Shown: piece by piece, positions 35,062 to 41,358 of the stretch
Position numbering within the stretch: position 1 is the stretch's first letter
How the letters are laid out: the number at the start of each line of letters is the position of its first letter
Assembly: GCF_900104925.1 (NCBI RefSeq)
Contig: NZ_LT629735.1
Span: 1,334,291 to 1,398,290, forward strand
Direction of reading: 5' to 3'
Length of the DNA stretch: 64,000 bases
Source: Opitutus sp. GAS368
GTDB lineage: Bacteria; Verrucomicrobiota; Verrucomicrobiia; Opitutales; Opitutaceae
Position numbers and translations under genes: made by a program
Notes under the pieces: generated by a model
Told to the model about the DNA's origin: nothing
Database searches by the model: none
Seen by the model: the letters and a program-made list of their open reading frames with translations, nothing else

Positions 35062-35135
<74 letters not shown>

Positions 35136-35315
35136 GCCTTCGCCGAGCGAAGCGATGGCGAAGGCTGTCCTCCGAAGCCTTGGCGGAGGAGGACATTTCA
35201 CTTGCGATTGGAGTGTGGTGGCTACGGCTGGCAGGCCAGCTCAGACGATCCTTTGTCCTGTCCGCCATAGCTTCATGGAGCGACAGCGGAGGCTTTGGCG
35301 CAGGAGGGTGTCGGG
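35136..35315. repeat. Cluster of hairpin repeats downstream of tRNA-Gly
   Basis: Successive hairpins are GCCTTCGCC/GGCGAAGGC at 35136-35165, GTCCTCCG/CGGAGGAGGAC at 35167-35193 and TCCGCC...GGCGGA-like arms around ATAGCTTCATGGAGCGACA at about 35261-35293. Such units are typical of dispersed REP-like families. No gene is seen up to 35351. Confidence 0.7.
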
Positions 35316-35351: not shown

Positions 35352-36251
35352 TCAGAGGAAAAAATAATCCTCTTCCATGCCCAGGAAGCGGCGGCTGGGT
35401 GGAACGTAGAGCACCCGCCAGACATCCGCATACCGGCTCCAAGGACCGGGGATCAGTCCGTCAAAAACCAAACGCGGCTCCGCGGCCTTGCCAGTCGGGA
35501 TGGCATGCAGCCTTTGCAGGAAAAGCTCGTGCCCCTGATCGGTCGCAAAAAACAGGCTGCGCCGCTCAATGGGATGGGCGTCCGACGGCAGCTGACCGTG
35601 GAGCTGCCCGCCGTGATTGCGCGCGAAGATCTCCACCACGCTCGCATGCCGCTCCATTTCCCCGGCGGCCTTGCGGCAGGCGGTGACGTAGTCCGCCGCC
35701 GCGGCGTGCCCATAGGAGACGAAGCCGGCCTTGGTCCGCCGAAACAGGATCACCGTCACCCCTGGCGCCCGTGAGTGGATCGTGGCGGCCGATACGTCCG
35801 GCCAGTAGCTCGGCGACTCGGTCGCCCGTAGGTGGCCTTCCCACCAATGCAGGATGTTGAAGCGCTCCGCGGCCTCCAATAGGGCGCCGCCGCGGGCCTG
35901 CCGCCGCCACAGGCCGGGAAAGGCGGACATGCCATTGGTCGATGAATCGACCTCAAATCCGTAGCCACCTTGGGCGCCATCCGCCTGGAGCTGCCAATGA
36001 GCCCAGCGCTCCATGGCCTCCGAGATGGCCATGAACCGGGCCACCATCGGCGAGGTCGATGCCCCGCTACCATTGGCGCCGCTGTAAAGCTGGCGCCCGG
36101 CTTGATTGGGGCCCAAGCCTTCTTTCAAATAGGCGTTGGCGAGAAACCGCCGCTCGCCCAGCACCTCGGTCTCGATGAATTCCAGCCGCTCGATCGGCCC
36201 CCCCGCGGACGCGAGGACGTTGCGGTAACGATACGCGGCGAGGCTAAACAT
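35352..36251 (-). CDS. YcaO-family enzyme next to a multi-core peptide gene
   Basis: 299 residues. Three YcaO segments are recognisable in order: GANGSGASTSPMVARFMAIS leading into SEAMERW (residues 58-83, the ATP/Mg region), ALLEAAERFNILHWWEG (123-139, matching the ALLEAIERD..WW block) and ACRKAAGEMERHASVVEIF (191-209). YcaO enzymes use ATP to activate peptide amides, forming azolines, thioamides or macroamidines in RiPPs. The PxPxP end typical of azoline-forming cyclodehydratases is absent; the protein ends GMEEDYFFL, and at 299 residues it is short. No E1-like partner, TfuA, dehydrogenase or transporter is adjacent. It begins 33 bases after the repeat peptide gene on the same strand. Confidence 0.86.
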   Translation of the reverse strand: MFSLAAYRYRNVLASAGGPIERLEFIETEVLGERRFLANAYLKEGLGPNQAGRQLYSGANGSGASTSPMVARFMAISEAMERWAHWQLQADGAQGGYGFEVDSSTNGMSAFPGLWRRQARGGALLEAAERFNILHWWEGHLRATESPSYWPDVSAATIHSRAPGVTVILFRRTKAGFVSYGHAAAADYVTACRKAAGEMERHASVVEIFARNHGGQLHGQLPSDAHPIERRSLFFATDQGHELFLQRLHAIPTGKAAEPRLVFDGLIPGPWSRYADVWRVLYVPPSRRFLGMEEDYFFL

Positions 36252-36284
36252 AAGCGCACCCGGCCGCCGGGCGCGCCGGATTCA

Positions 36285-36578
36285 TCACGAGCCCTGCGGC
36301 GTGAAATTGCACACCGTGTCGCAGAAGGCCACGGTCCGGAAATTGCATACGGTATCGCAGAAAGCTGCGGTCCGGAAATTGCACACGGTATCGCAGAAAG
36401 CTACGGTCTGGAAATTGCACACCGTGTCACAAAACGCGGCGGAGCGAATGTTCAAGACATTCTTGATGGCGCCGCCGTCGCGCTGCATGGGGTCGAGCTT
36501 CTCCGCGAGGGAGGTCAGGCCGACATTAAGGAGGAGGCTCGAGGCGAGCCCGTTAAAAGAATAGAGGAAGGAGGACAT
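36285..36578 (-). CDS. Multi-core RiPP precursor-like peptide with four FCDTVCNF units
   Basis: 97 residues. Residues 1-45 look like a leader (MSSFLYSFNGLASSLLLNVG, then LTSLAEKLDPMQRDGG with a Gly-Gly at 35-36). Residues 46-92 are four units with an exact 12-residue period, each holding AFCDTVCNF (Cys at 50/54, 62/66, 74/78, 86/90), linked by QTV, RTA and RTV; TPQGS ends the protein. Eight Cys plus Asp and Thr are natural substrates for YcaO chemistry, and a YcaO gene follows after 33 bases. The Ala codons before Phe vary (GCC, GCT, GCG) without changing the residue, which supports this strand rather than the opposite frame. No Shine-Dalgarno is evident. A metal-binding or structural repeat protein is the main alternative. 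Confidence 0.82.
   Translation of the reverse strand: MSSFLYSFNGLASSLLLNVGLTSLAEKLDPMQRDGGAIKNVLNIRSAAFCDTVCNFQTVAFCDTVCNFRTAAFCDTVCNFRTVAFCDTVCNFTPQGS
36303..36446 (-). repeat. Four tandem 36-bp repeats encoding the peptide cores
   Basis: Four directly adjacent 36-base units with about 80-95% mutual identity, in frame with the peptide gene. There are no spacers, so it is not a CRISPR array. Confidence 0.95.
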
Positions 36579-36683
36579 GGATGCATTCTGGCCGAGAACC
36601 CCGAAAAACCCGACCGATGAATTCGCCTGTATTGAGGGACCCTCAACCTGCTGCCACTCGCGACGTGCGACCTAAGTCAAGGT

Positions 36684-39600
36684 GTGGACAAGAGGTTGCA
36701 GCCGGCCGATAATTTACTTTCCTATTCCCAAGTGCATCACCGGTTTTCAAAAGCAGCGACCCTCCTTCTTTGCCTGCTGCTTGGCGATGACCCGGCCATT
36801 TTGCACGCCGCTTGGACCGACCGAACCGCCGGTCTGCCGCCGGTGGAAATCACCCCGGCCAGGGCCATGGGCGGGGATGCCCGCAAATCCATGATCCAGC
36901 AGGACCGGCTTGGCCGGATTCTCATCGGATCGGATTCGCTGCAGGTTTTCGACGGCCAATCGTGGAGCTCCCATGCCAAACCCAGCCCCTACTCCCTGCG
37001 TTCCCTGATCCCGGATAAAGTGGGCCGGCTGTGGACTGCCATGTTCACCGACATCGGTTACTTCACGGAGGAGCCGCTCGGGACCTTCAAGTATCACTCG
37101 CTTGTCCCGCAGCTGCCGCCGTCACTTCGTGAAATCGGCGCCGTCTGGGGCTGCGCATCTGTCGGCTCCGACATCTATTTCTTTGGCAAGGACCAGTTGT
37201 TGCGCTGGGACGGACAGGCTTTCCAGGCAACGCCTTTCCCTACCAGCTTGCGCCTGTCGCCCTTGAAAATCGGGGACGAGTTTTGGTTTCATCACCTCGA
37301 AACTGGTCTTTATCGACTGACCGAGGCCGGCCCGCAGCTGAGTGTGCCCGCGAGCCAGCTAGGGACCAAGCTGATCATCGGCCTGATCCGGGATGAATCA
37401 GGGCTGATTACCATCAGCAATGAGGGCTTGATCCGCCCTGGTGAGCCGGCCCCGTTTTCGTCGGAACGTCTGAACCAATACCTGACCCAGCACCGCGTAA
37501 GTGCCTTTACCGAGTTGCCCAACGGCAATCTTGCGATCGGCACCGTCTCGGGTGGGCTGGTCCTGGCCAACCACTCCGGCGGGGTGATTCGCATCTGGGC
37601 CGACACGGGCAGCGGTCTGCCCGGCCGCGAAATAACCAGCCTGACGACTGACACCTCCGGAGAGATCCTCGGCACGACGCCCACCGATTTCTTTCACCTG
37701 CCGGCGACGGGGGAAAGCACGGTGTTCAACGCTCTGAACGGCCTGAAGGGGCAGGCCGTCAACGATCTTGTGTTCTGGCGGTCCACCCTGCACGCCGCCA
37801 CAGACGATGGCATCTATCGACTGGACACTTCGGCCGAGGGAGTCGCCCAATTCCAAGCCGTGCCTTCCTTGGCCGTGAGTTCCGGCCACATGTTGCCTTG
37901 TGATGACGGCCTACTGCTTTCGCGCTTTGGCGGGGTCGACTGGTTCGACGGCACGACCACTCGCACGGTCTATCCGCTTCAAGCCAACTCTGCCATTTTT
38001 GTCCAACCGGCCAGAACGAATCCTCGATTGTTCTATGTAGCGGAAGTAAACAGGCTGGTCCGGTTGGACCGACAGGCTGATGGCTCTTTTGCGAGCAGCC
38101 GTTTCTTGGAGCTGCCCGATACATGCATCAGCCTGCACGAAGACTCTTCGGGCCGTCTCTGGCTCGGCACTGTCGCCAAGGGTGCTTTCTGCTATGATCC
38201 CGCCACCAGGCGACTCACCCCGCTGATCGACCCGGTTACCGCCCAGCCAACCCAAGGGCTGACTTGGGTTGTCGGAAACGAAGCTCGCCTCCTTTTCTTT
38301 CTCAAAGACCACGTGCTCCAGGCCGGTCCGCAAGGCCGGGACCTGCGCGAACTACCGAACCTGCCGGTCATCACCCCGTCCATCGTGCGCGCCATCCCCG
38401 GAAGCGAGGATGTTCTGGTTGTTTATCGGCTGCCGGCGGGCACTCAAGGTCCGCTGCACGGCGCGGGAGTCCTTTCCTTCGACCGGGACGGCTTGGCCCG
38501 CTGGCGCGAACTCGACCTTGGCTCCCTGGATGCCATCGGGTCGATTCGCACCGCCACCTTTGCGGAGGAGAACCACCGGCCCATTCTGTGGTTGGGCGGC
38601 ATGCAGGGCATCCTGCGCCTCGACTACGACAAGATCCCGACCCTGCTGCCACCCGCACCGCCTATCATCAAGGTCCCGGACCTGCCCGGCGGTCCGGTTC
38701 CCTCCTACCCACACAAGAACCACCGGGTGCAGTTCAGGGTTTTCACCGGGGATTATGTCCGCAGCAAGGACTTGGTTTTCCAAACGCGTCTCGGCGAGGG
38801 TGGCGGAGAGTGGTCCTCCGCTTCCGCGCGCCGCTCCTTCGAATACACCAATCTGTCCGAAGGCGACTATCGCTTCGAGGTCCGTGCGGTCAACCGTGCG
38901 GGCCAGACCAGCGCACCGGCCGTTTTCACCTTCCGCATCCTGCCGCCGTGGTATCGCTCGGGCTGGGCCTTCGCCGGCTACGTTGCCGCCCTCGGCCTGG
39001 CGGTGTTCGGCTTCATCCGTGTCCGCGAGCGCCGGATCCGGGCCCGTAACCAGGAGCTCGAGACCCTGGTCGAGGTCCGCACCGCCGAGCTCGTCAAGGC
39101 CAGCGCCGCCAAGGACGAATTCCTCGCCGGCGTCAGCCATGAGATCCGCAACCCGATGAACGGCGTCATCGGCATTGCCGAGAATTTCCGGACCGAGGGC
39201 CTCGACGCCGAGAGCCGCCGCAAGTTCAGCCTGCTCCGGCAGTGCGCCAGCCACCTCTCGTCGCTGCTGGAAGACATCCTTGATTTCTCGAAGGTGCAGG
39301 CGGGCGCGATCGAGCTGGACCCGAAGCCCTTCGACCTGCCCGAGCTGGTCGAATCCGTCGCCGCCATCACCCGCGCCGACAGCGAGAAATACGGCGTCCC
39401 GGTGGAACTCGCCGTTTCACCCGCCGTGCCCCGCGAGCTGGTGGGCGACGCGCGCCGCATCCGCCAGATTCTGATCAACTTTGTCAGCAACGCCCTGAAG
39501 TTTTCCGGACGCGGCCAGGTCAGCGTCACCGTCTGGTGCAAGAGCCTGGGGATCGCGCGAACCGAGGTGATCTTCGCCGTGTCCGACGAGGGACCGGGCA

Positions 39601-40628
39601 TTTCCGCCGAGGAACAGGCGCGGCTCTTCACGCGTTTCGAGCGCGGCGCGGCCGCGCAAAAGGGCCGGGTGCCCGGCACCGGCCTCGGCCTCGCCCTGTG
39701 CAAGGGTCTCGCCGAGAAAATGGGCGGCCGGATCTGGCTGGAAAGCGAACTGGGCCAGGGTTCGTGCCTTTATTTCAGCGCCCCCTTTGCCGTCGCCGCG
39801 GCGGCCGCCGAGCCGGCCGCCGGCGCCACCCCCGCGGCCGCCCCGGCGGGCCGCACCGCGCTCGTGGTCGACGACCAGGAATACAACCGCATCGTGCTGG
39901 CCGACCTGCTGCAGTCGATGGGCTTCATCGTGCACGCCGCGCAGGAAGGCTCGGCCGCCCTCGCGCTGGCCGGCCGGCAGACCTTCGATGTCGTCTTCCT
40001 CGATTTCAACCTGCCCGGCCTCAGCGGGGTCGATGTCGCCCGCGCCATCCGCACCCTGCCCAACGCCTCCGCCCACGCCCTGATCCTCGCCACCACCGCG
40101 TTCACCACGCCGGAAAAACGGGCGCAGTGCCTGGACGCCGGGATGGACGCCTTCCTCGGCAAGCCCGTTACCAGGGAACGGCTGGCCAAGGCGCTCGCCG
40201 GTCTCCAGCCGGTGGCAACCGCCCCCGCCCCAGTCGCCGCGCCGGTGGCGCAACCGTCTGCCCGGGCCTCCAGCGGCCCGGCCGACCGGCTGGGCAACCT
40301 GCGCCTGCTGGCCCGCAAAAAGGGCGTCCCTTTCGCCGACGAGCTGGCGCTGTATCTTTCCGAGCTCGAGGTCGAGCTCGGGCAACTCGAGGCCGCCGTG
40401 GCGCAAGCGGATGCCGCCGAGGCGGGCCGCTGCGCCCACCTGCTCGTCGGCCGTTGCGGTTTCATCTACGAGCGCGAGATGGAACAGACCCAGCGCACGC
40501 TCGAGGCCGCCGTCGGCAGTGCCCACTGGGATGAGGTGCGCCGCCTCTTGGGCGAGTTCGCCGTCCAGCTGGCCGACCTGCGGGTCAGAGTGGCGGCTTC
40601 TTCTGGCCCAGCTGCTCCGCCCGCGTGA
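36684..40628 (+). CDS. Hybrid two-component sensor (propeller/Y_Y_Y, HisKA, HATPase, REC, Hpt-like)
   Basis: 1314 residues from a GTG. An N-terminal hydrophobic segment (AATLLLCLLLG) exports a periplasmic part of two-component propeller repeats (DSSGRLWLGT, DTSGEILGTT) ending in a Y_Y_Y domain at about 675-758. One membrane helix follows at about 762-782. The kinase core has the H-box SHEIRNPMNGVIG (His819) and N/G boxes (NFVSNALKFS, GTGLGLALCKGL). A receiver follows with VVFLDFNLPG (Asp1107), and an Hpt-like end with CAHLLVGRCGF (His1252). Such sensors usually detect glycan fragments. It diverges from the peptide-YcaO pair with 105 bases between starts and overlaps the LuxR-type regulator gene tail to tail by 44 bases. 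Confidence 0.93.
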   Translation: MDKRLQPADNLLSYSQVHHRFSKAATLLLCLLLGDDPAILHAAWTDRTAGLPPVEITPARAMGGDARKSMIQQDRLGRILIGSDSLQVFDGQSWSSHAKPSPYSLRSLIPDKVGRLWTAMFTDIGYFTEEPLGTFKYHSLVPQLPPSLREIGAVWGCASVGSDIYFFGKDQLLRWDGQAFQATPFPTSLRLSPLKIGDEFWFHHLETGLYRLTEAGPQLSVPASQLGTKLIIGLIRDESGLITISNEGLIRPGEPAPFSSERLNQYLTQHRVSAFTELPNGNLAIGTVSGGLVLANHSGGVIRIWADTGSGLPGREITSLTTDTSGEILGTTPTDFFHLPATGESTVFNALNGLKGQAVNDLVFWRSTLHAATDDGIYRLDTSAEGVAQFQAVPSLAVSSGHMLPCDDGLLLSRFGGVDWFDGTTTRTVYPLQANSAIFVQPARTNPRLFYVAEVNRLVRLDRQADGSFASSRFLELPDTCISLHEDSSGRLWLGTVAKGAFCYDPATRRLTPLIDPVTAQPTQGLTWVVGNEARLLFFLKDHVLQAGPQGRDLRELPNLPVITPSIVRAIPGSEDVLVVYRLPAGTQGPLHGAGVLSFDRDGLARWRELDLGSLDAIGSIRTATFAEENHRPILWLGGMQGILRLDYDKIPTLLPPAPPIIKVPDLPGGPVPSYPHKNHRVQFRVFTGDYVRSKDLVFQTRLGEGGGEWSSASARRSFEYTNLSEGDYRFEVRAVNRAGQTSAPAVFTFRILPPWYRSGWAFAGYVAALGLAVFGFIRVRERRIRARNQELETLVEVRTAELVKASAAKDEFLAGVSHEIRNPMNGVIGIAENFRTEGLDAESRRKFSLLRQCASHLSSLLEDILDFSKVQAGAIELDPKPFDLPELVESVAAITRADSEKYGVPVELAVSPAVPRELVGDARRIRQILINFVSNALKFSGRGQVSVTVWCKSLGIARTEVIFAVSDEGPGISAEEQARLFTRFERGAAAQKGRVPGTGLGLALCKGLAEKMGGRIWLESELGQGSCLYFSAPFAVAAAAAEPAAGATPAAAPAGRTALVVDDQEYNRIVLADLLQSMGFIVHAAQEGSAALALAGRQTFDVVFLDFNLPGLSGVDVARAIRTLPNASAHALILATTAFTTPEKRAQCLDAGMDAFLGKPVTRERLAKALAGLQPVATAPAPVAAPVAQPSARASSGPADRLGNLRLLARKKGVPFADELALYLSELEVELGQLEAAVAQADAAEAGRCAHLLVGRCGFIYEREMEQTQRTLEAAVGSAHWDEVRRLLGEFAVQLADLRVRVAASSGPAAPPA

Positions 40629-41358
40629 GTCCGTTGACGATCGCGTAGTGGATCAGCTTCGGGGTCGTGTGGATGTCGAGCTTCCGCATGATGTCGCGCC
40701 GGCGCGACTGCACGGTGGCGGGGCTGATGGCCAGCACGGTGGCGATCTCGTCGTCGGTCTTGGACTCGCCGATCATCGAGAGGATGCGGGTCTCGTAGTC
40801 GGAGAGCACCCGGATGAAGGCCCGCGGATCGCGCCGGATGCTGGCGCTCGATTCATTCACGATGGGCGTGTAGTAGACCCGCCCGCCCAGGACGGCGTGG
40901 ATGGCCTCGGACAGCACCTCCGGACGCTGCTCGTTCTTGTCCACGAAGCCGTGGAGCCCGATGCGCTGCACCTGCAGCATCGTCCACGGATCGCGGTGCG
41001 ACGAGATCGCGAGAATCTTGACGGACGGCAGCTCGTCGAGGACGACCTTGGACATTTCCAACCCGTCACCGTCCGGCAGCGAGATATCCATCAGGACCAG
41101 ATCGGGCCGGTGCTTGCGGATGGCGGCGAGGCCCTCCTCGCAAGTCCCGCAGGCCTGCAACACCTGCAGGCCCAGATCGCGGCAGTGGTAGGTGAAAAAC
41201 TCCGCCACGATCCGCTGGTCCTCCACAATGACGACACGCCCGCGGGCCACCGGGCCGGCGGGGCTTTTTCCTGGGATTGTGTCCGCTGAGTTCACTGGCT
41301 TGTCTTGAAATAGGGTTGGAGCGAGCCGCCGCCGGGTGGCTGGCGTCACCGGGCGCAT
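40585..41358 (-). CDS. NarL/LuxR-type response regulator
   Basis: Up to 257 residues. The receiver has VVIVEDQ, the phosphorylation Asp in LVLMDISLPDGDG and the Lys in HGFVDKNEQ. The C-terminal LuxR helix-turn-helix is LSDYETRILSMIGESKTDDE to SRRRDIMRKL. A GTG at 41295 is an alternative start that drops an Arg-rich leader. The end overlaps the hybrid kinase gene by 44 bases on the opposite strand. The kinase carries an Hpt-like domain and this protein a receiver plus DNA-binding domain, so a phosphorelay between them is likely. Confidence 0.92.
   Translation of the reverse strand: MRPVTPATRRRLAPTLFQDKPVNSADTIPGKSPAGPVARGRVVIVEDQRIVAEFFTYHCRDLGLQVLQACGTCEEGLAAIRKHRPDLVLMDISLPDGDGLEMSKVVLDELPSVKILAISSHRDPWTMLQVQRIGLHGFVDKNEQRPEVLSEAIHAVLGGRVYYTPIVNESSASIRRDPRAFIRVLSDYETRILSMIGESKTDDEIATVLAISPATVQSRRRDIMRKLDIHTTPKLIHYAIVNGLTRAEQLGQKKPPL

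Follow-up and report, generated by a model that had tools for sequence, protein, structure and literature searches.

A conserved module of a YcaO-family enzyme, a short variable precursor peptide, a hybrid sensor kinase and a response regulator in Opitutales, with a possible role in peptide signaling

The precursor gene is located on the minus strand of the analyzed window (64,000 nucleotides of the Opitutus sp. GAS368 genome) at positions 36285–36578, and it encodes a peptide of 97 amino acid residues with a leader and four core units; a profile that included this peptide recovered it at E 2.2e-17. Based on the alignment of 23 precursors, the leader (residues 1–30; 36489–36578, minus strand) is conserved, hydrophobic and signal-peptide-like. 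The core units, found from the open reading frame and by pattern search, occupy residues 48–92 (36303–36437, minus strand) with a period of 12 residues: AFCDTVCNF stands at residues 48–56, 60–68, 72–80 and 84–92, and the units are joined by the linkers QTV, RTA and RTV. The stop codon of the precursor is separated by 33 bases from the start of a YcaO-family gene on the same strand. This arrangement, from which the original prediction had proposed a new RiPP system, was confirmed from the open reading frames. When the back-translated pattern of the unit was searched in the whole genome (G000), four matches were observed, every one at the locus, and the reversed control gave 0. The copies share the same nine residues, yet five third positions differ among the seven codons compared, and the differences were found at third codon positions only, a pattern that would be compatible with selection on the peptide. 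No confident match to the precursor was found in Pfam, NCBIfam or PADLOC. A weak NCBIfam match to methanobactin (15.4 bits, cut-off 24, 10 residues) was taken as chance.

The YcaO-family enzyme (35352–36251, minus strand, 299 amino acid residues), the putative modifier of the cores, was assigned from its open reading frame, Pfam, a match of its AlphaFold model to the PDB, and a 47-member alignment. The window protein scored 22.9 bits against PF02624, under the cut-off of 25.7; 46 of the 47 aligned members, including that of the window, matched this family at E ≤ 0.1 (best 9e-10). The NCBIfam SagD model matched 38 of the 47 members at E ≤ 0.1, with a window score of 14.2 bits against a cut-off of 219. 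The AlphaFold model (pLDDT 83.6, 8-sequence alignment) had one PDB match at E ≤ 0.001, namely McbD of the microcin B17 synthetase (7.3e-5, TM 0.51/0.40); this structural score is moderate, and other solved YcaOs were absent among the best 50 matches listed. When the 8-member sequence profile was compared with the PDB, no solved YcaO was found, and a match to an iron-dependent repressor (E 0.077) was attributed to chance. Residues E78, E81, E129 and E198 were invariant in all 47 members, E126 and R82 were present in 46, R201 in 44 and R130 in 43; we take these conserved Glu and Arg positions to be the ATP-site motifs. The name YcaO superfamily is based on the predicted fold and the motifs, the PF02624 score of the window protein being sub-threshold. 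The C-terminal PxPxP motif, whose absence had been remarked on for the window enzyme, was found in none of the 47 members; their C-terminus is mostly an aromatic run, exactly YFFW in 18 of them. The enzyme is distant from known families, and the profile and fold comparisons give no sign that it belongs to a branch acting on something other than peptides.

When the GTDB contigs were scanned with a single window protein, the sole search reaching other phyla, 7 loci were obtained, close relatives only. The YcaO search of 372 genomes of the order matched 40 genomes with 43 matches, and an alignment search of 387 genomes of the phylum picked out 14, all from the window's own order. The resulting 47 distinct loci are the window, six loci of the GTDB scan and 40 fetched regions; L008, which duplicates L044, is not counted, and the YcaO matches in G184 and G147 (second) were left out. 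The precursor profile (23 sequences) matched at E ≤ 0.01 in 30 of the 372 genomes, with at most 16 candidates scored per genome. All 27 matches at E ≤ 5.4e-4 adjoined a YcaO match, 19 of them being in the profile by construction and 8 independent, and the remaining four (E 0.005–0.01) lay away from YcaO in open frames of 140–473 amino acid residues. Among the 40 genomes having a YcaO match, 13 gave no strong precursor-profile match. The conserved co-occurrence that the original prediction had proposed to look for was therefore observed, and precursor homologues lacking a YcaO gene, which it had named as counter-evidence, were not found in the 372 genomes at up to 16 scored candidates each. On these sequence comparisons, the precursor and the YcaO are supported as a conserved pair. 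Two YcaO matches were seen in each of the genomes G033 (L070, L071), G084 (L062, L080) and G147; the peptide pair of G033 is similar at the ends (PTCLPTV), and that of G084 differs. A defense system was considered and set aside, with no PADLOC match at E ≤ 0.01, as was a plasmid location, with no match of P0001 in PLSDB.

In each of the 47 loci, a short open reading frame was found upstream of the YcaO gene; its leader resembles a signal peptide, and its tail is variable and in most cases contains Cys. The assigned precursors span 39–123 amino acid residues; 14 of the assignments (L063, L066, L067, L071–L081) were made from position and an N-terminal hydrophobic stretch only, without a strong profile match, and that of L074, which has no Cys, Ser or Thr near its end, may be mis-called. 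In the 23 aligned precursors, M1, G20 and A25 of the leader are invariant and L15 nearly so, and a variable tail follows. Lys or Arg occurs within residues 2–8 in 44 of the 47 precursors, the window precursor being an exception without an N-terminal basic residue. Core repeats were present in only 6 of the 47 (four in the window, three in L005, five in L011, three each in L064 and L065, and three in L068), falling into three groups by sequence, so the multi-core precursor, noted in the original prediction, does not define the system. Cys beyond residue 30 was found in 43 of the 47 precursors. Beyond residue 28, P-C occurred in 23 precursors (shuffled tails: mean 6.8, maximum 14) and P-[CST] in 35 (mean 23.1, maximum 35), an enrichment that is suggestive only of modified Cys, Ser or Thr residues. 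Cys, Thr and Ser are exchanged at equivalent core positions, as in AFCDTVCNF (window), AFTETVCNF (L005) and AFSELPCQF (L011), and the precursor ends read P-C-E-V in L067/L077 and P-T-E-V in L072/L075; such exchange would fit cyclodehydration, without proving it. The precursors of L066, L067, L072, L075 and L077 have 39–40 amino acid residues and similar ends (KA-x-P-x-x-P-C/T-E-V in four of them), and are not hypervariable.

Divergent from the precursor gene, a hybrid sensor histidine kinase is encoded at 36684–40628 (plus strand; alternative start, GTG at 36732), in which the domain search found Reg_prop/Y_Y_Y, HisKA, HATPase_c, Response_reg and a sub-threshold Hpt domain. Its variable part is an extracytoplasmic β-propeller plus Y_Y_Y sensor domain (36798–38954, plus strand). 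When the AlphaFold model of this domain (pLDDT 84.8) was compared by Foldseek, it matched best the periplasmic domain of BT4663 (4a2m/4a2l), with E down to 1.7e-26 and TM up to 0.71. A NarL/LuxR-type response regulator (40585–41358, minus strand; Response_reg 66.6 bits, GerE 38.2 bits) lies tail to tail with the kinase. As shown by tblastn, a relative of the hybrid kinase is divergent from the YcaO operon in all 47 loci, across several families of the order Opitutales, with a match covering the kinase half only in 13 of them. A regulator relative was found in 41 loci, 36 beside the kinase and five downstream of YcaO; of the six without one, L010 and L063 retain too little contig. These presences were counted by tblastn because the longest-frame ORF caller hid some YcaO genes and the window regulator. 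When the flanking open reading frames were clustered, the only families in at least 30 loci were the kinase (46), the YcaO (33) and a regulator of 215–270 residues (30), and the next family (11 loci) was an open reading frame antisense to the YcaO gene. No family downstream of YcaO was common to more than 9 of the 47 loci (40 of which have at least 2 kb there), so a dedicated exporter or protease is not apparent. E1-like/RRE, dehydrogenase and TfuA families were likewise not seen among the neighbors conserved across loci, which is the range that this clustering covers. The one Y_Y_Y match at E ≤ 0.001 in G000 was the module kinase; the search is not a complete one, since the corresponding kinase of G353 escapes it. 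There is good support for a conserved module that comprises precursor, YcaO, hybrid kinase and regulator.

Motif search between the divergent kinase and precursor genes revealed an operator-like dyad, ACCTTGACTTAGGT, at 36670–36683. NarL-type regulators bind 7-2-7 dyads of such form. In the 4.15 Mb genome, ACCTTGNNTTAGGT had a single exact match, the window site, and three occurrences with one mismatch versus two for the control; a wider regulon is therefore not visible and is not claimed. Within 160 bp upstream, ACC-N8-GGT was found in 24 of the 47 loci (500 shuffles: mean 1.53, maximum 6) and dyads of other spacings (3–7 and 9–14) in 0–6 loci; the strict dyad was missing in the other 23. Most sites (22 of 27) are placed no more than 3 bases from −63, −85 or −107 relative to the precursor start. 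Inspection of the sequences preceded the choice of the pattern, a choice that does not bear on the spacing and position controls; a count over spacers 3–8 (31 of 47 loci versus 11.6 expected) was superseded by the fixed-spacer test. In L054, three copies of the dyad follow one another at intervals of exactly 22 bases, or roughly two turns of the helix, 64–108 bases upstream of the precursor.

The components of the module differ in variability. Among six near relatives, mean identity was 82% for the regulator, 81% for the kinase, 68% for YcaO, 60% for the leader, 42% for the sensor and 29% for the core tail; across the 33 loci with a usable regulator, the corresponding values were 38, 39, 41, 35, 20 and 25%, so that at long range only the sensor and the core tail remain conspicuous. 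For the nearest pairs whose cores differ, the identities of regulator, kinase, YcaO and sensor were 98/98/65/47% (window–L011), 92/92/76/45% (L043–L006) and 97/95/83/38% (L045–L047), and pairs with similar cores have closer sensors (window–L005, 68%; L064–L065, 74%). At the DNA level, identity falls near the transmembrane boundary of the kinase in window/L011, L005/L011 and L045/L047, and recovers beyond YcaO in L005/L011 and window/L011 and inside the YcaO gene in L045/L047; because the recovery point differs between pairs, the edges of the cassette vary. In L064/L065, no recovery was seen beyond YcaO, and identity is low over just a short part of the sensor. L005 and L011, which come from one MAG, match at 91.7% along 1893 bp on the side of the kinase and at 95.4% along 196 bp past the YcaO gene. 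Different cassettes between such matching flanks may be alternative alleles of one locus and coexisting signal types, or may stem from two strains placed in one bin. On its outer side, the variable cassette is bordered by a tRNA-Gly gene (35062–35135, plus strand; ARAGORN), and the 167–196 bp beyond YcaO that reach into it are 91–95% identical among the window, L005 and L011; no tRNA is found by ARAGORN in L005 and L011 because both end within tRNA-Gly. By eye and self-comparison, short GC-rich inverted repeats were seen next to the tRNA-Gly gene (35140–35300 of the window), similar in L005 and L011. It is possible that such repeats at the outer edge serve as a recombination substrate.

The relation between core and sensor was analyzed in the 41 loci whose kinase is one ORF longer than 1100 amino acid residues (L010, L046, L048, L051, L054 and L073 left out). 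In partial Mantel analysis, the core tail was correlated with the sensor given the kinase (0.31, a value reached by 0 of 999 permutations), and gave 0.06 with YcaO given the kinase (175 of 999) and −0.21 with the kinase given the sensor (997 of 999). By ranks or after thinning, the core–sensor correlation was 0.16–0.29 (0–8 of 499 permutations as high). These values are modest, and phylogeny is not taken into account in the permutations. The leader distance tracks both YcaO and sensor. For comparison, seven same-genus control pairs of kinases without YcaO had sensor/kinase identities of 86/90, 78/76, 61/74, 51/79, 51/77, 28/93 and 27/77%, and four module pairs had 39/95, 38/74, 45/81 and 40/72%. 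The controls are few, being only those kinases whose phospho-acceptor site was located by a simple motif, and their count omits reciprocal between-genera pairs and pairs without usable kinase columns. Module sensors vary more than most controls, yet within the control range. Since some control kinases without YcaO also have swapped sensors, the argument from variability is weakened, and since neither a YcaO match nor a precursor-like ORF was found in the stretches inspected near the two low-sensor pairs, the strongest form of a pheromone reading is disfavored. One low-sensor pair is a second Reg_prop/Y_Y_Y hybrid kinase of G188 and G196 (L144/L145; about 7827–11711 in L144; sensor 28%, kinase part 93%), and a relative of it in L147 adjoins an M13 peptidase gene. 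Sensors are thus swapped among such kinases even where no peptide partner is present, and a pheromone reading is drawn from linkage, operator, secretion-type leader, variability order and core–sensor correlation together.

The kinase, the regulator, the operator and the conserved leader, none of which was part of the original prediction, shift the likely function from a new RiPP system in general to a peptide signal with a receptor; what stands of that proposal is the conserved pair of precursor and YcaO. The conserved gene set, the leader, the operator, the enzyme and sensor folds, the order of variability, and the different cassettes between matching flanks were all computed. They are best explained, with slightly better than even confidence on our part, by a YcaO-modified peptide autoinducer that has its own periplasmic receptor. 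A scheme can be proposed for the inferred steps, from the chemistry of the modification through export, processing and binding of the ligand to the direction in which regulation runs and the exchange between cells. The precursor would be synthesized with a signal-peptide-like leader, and the YcaO would modify its C-terminal core in the cytoplasm using ATP, most likely to azolines by cyclization of Cys, Ser or Thr. The modified peptide would leave by the general secretory route, general proteases would trim the leader and the linkers, and the mature peptide would build up outside the inner membrane, where it may bind the periplasmic β-propeller of the divergent hybrid kinase. The signal would then pass through the receiver and Hpt domains to the NarL-type regulator, which, once phosphorylated, would bind the dyad between the kinase and precursor genes so that more signal is made. 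Sensor, precursor and YcaO would form an allelic cassette whose variants correspond to distinct types of signal. A bolder formulation, to which we give a little less than even credence, is that this is the first YcaO-modified pheromone: a four-gene quorum-sensing module of Verrucomicrobiota in which a β-propeller hybrid kinase of glycan-sensor fold is the receptor, signal-type cassettes are exchanged whole at a single chromosomal locus, and the dose is set by the number of core repeats in some lineages.

Other explanations were weighed against the autoinducer. Structurally, the sensor is best matched by the glycan sensor BT4663, which counts against a pheromone, and the kinase may instead read an outside cue and control a RiPP product, an antibiotic or a metal binder, that acts elsewhere; the Cys present beyond residue 30 in most precursors would fit a metal binder. 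We consider such a product unlikely, given that core divergence follows the sensor and not YcaO, which is unexpected for a plain cue sensor, and that no exporter or immunity gene is apparent in the flanks, though the ORF caller can miss genes. Alternatively, the exported peptide could be read by the kinase of the same cell as a report on periplasmic secretion, redox state or metals. The signal-peptide-like leader, the sensor of periplasmic fold, the Cys in most cores and the lack of an apparent outer-membrane export gene all suit an envelope monitor of this kind, but hypervariable cores and cassettes swapped between matching flanks suit private signals better than a housekeeping task, and we regard it as very unlikely.

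The control kinases raise the further point that cassette exchange may be generic among Reg_prop kinases, with precursor and YcaO merely hitchhiking and the core correlation reflecting linkage; two of the seven control pairs indeed combine sensors of 27–28% identity with kinases of 77–93%, with no YcaO or precursor-like ORF seen nearby. Yet sensor and kinase part share one gene and the core distance tracks the sensor only, and kinase and YcaO operon are unseparated in all 47 loci, which span several families of the order, so hitchhiking appears quite unlikely. YcaO enzymes that act on a ribosomal protein and on McrA are described in the available text of two reports (PMC13063428, PMC5589413), and the short ORF might accordingly not be the substrate at all, the YcaO acting on a larger protein; with 27 of 27 strong precursor-profile matches adjoining YcaO and a conserved leader, this is highly improbable.

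The proposed autoinducer module resembles ComQXPA of Bacillus, which also comprises a modifying enzyme, a short precursor, a membrane kinase and a response regulator (PMC4008528, PMC4408185, available text). According to the accessible part of Dogsa et al. (PMC4008528), the variability order of comQXPA is ComA>ComP>ComQ>ComX with a variable ComP sensor; the order found here is similar, with the regulator and kinase less variable than the modifier, the modifier less than the signal, and a variable sensor. Alternative alleles (pherotypes) are a further likeness (PMC4008528, PMC4408185, same text). In contrast, a YcaO stands here in place of the isoprenyl transferase ComQ and a β-propeller hybrid kinase in place of the multi-helix ComP, the layout in Opitutales is divergent, and some precursors are multi-core. 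ComX has a conserved Trp (PMC10352776, as far as its available text goes), whereas the window precursor has none, and the ComQXPA census, in the portion available, reports none outside Firmicutes (PMC4008528). With the azoline RiPPs (microcin B17, McbD), the module shares the YcaO fold, the conserved Glu-rich motifs and the exchange of Cys, Ser and Thr in the core; it differs in its YcaO of about 300 amino acid residues with an aromatic C-terminus (such as YFFW) and no PxPxP, in having no E1-like/RRE or dehydrogenase gene among the conserved neighbors, and in its link with a sensor kinase. The BT4663-type hybrid sensors have the same propeller plus Y_Y_Y fold and hybrid kinase, but BT4663 is titled a heparin/heparan sulphate sensor, and the partners here are a peptide-modifying operon and a separate NarL-type regulator. 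To our knowledge, the tandem-pheromone systems of the RRNPPA family include no YcaO. Their propeptides likewise carry several signal units, and their receptors are Rap proteins of the RRNPPA family in Bacillota (PMC11343458, available text). The MNIO-modified bufferins are also Cys-bearing RiPP precursors, with Sec signal peptides replacing the usual leader, but are modified by an enzyme of another family and have a copper function (PMC12452194, available text). Among the literature matches listed, which come mostly from outside subscription journals, no system such as this one was described.

The natural allele pairs window/L011 and L045/L047 make specificity directly testable by swaps. If the pheromone reading is true, Opitutales would own a peptide language of the Gram-positive type, one branch of the YcaO enzymes would have a signaling role, and a receptor fold known from polysaccharide sensing would read modified peptides. 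In these soil and water bacteria, a small enzyme and its probable peptide substrate are accompanied by a dedicated sensor in all relatives analyzed, and the peptide may be a signal from cell to cell.
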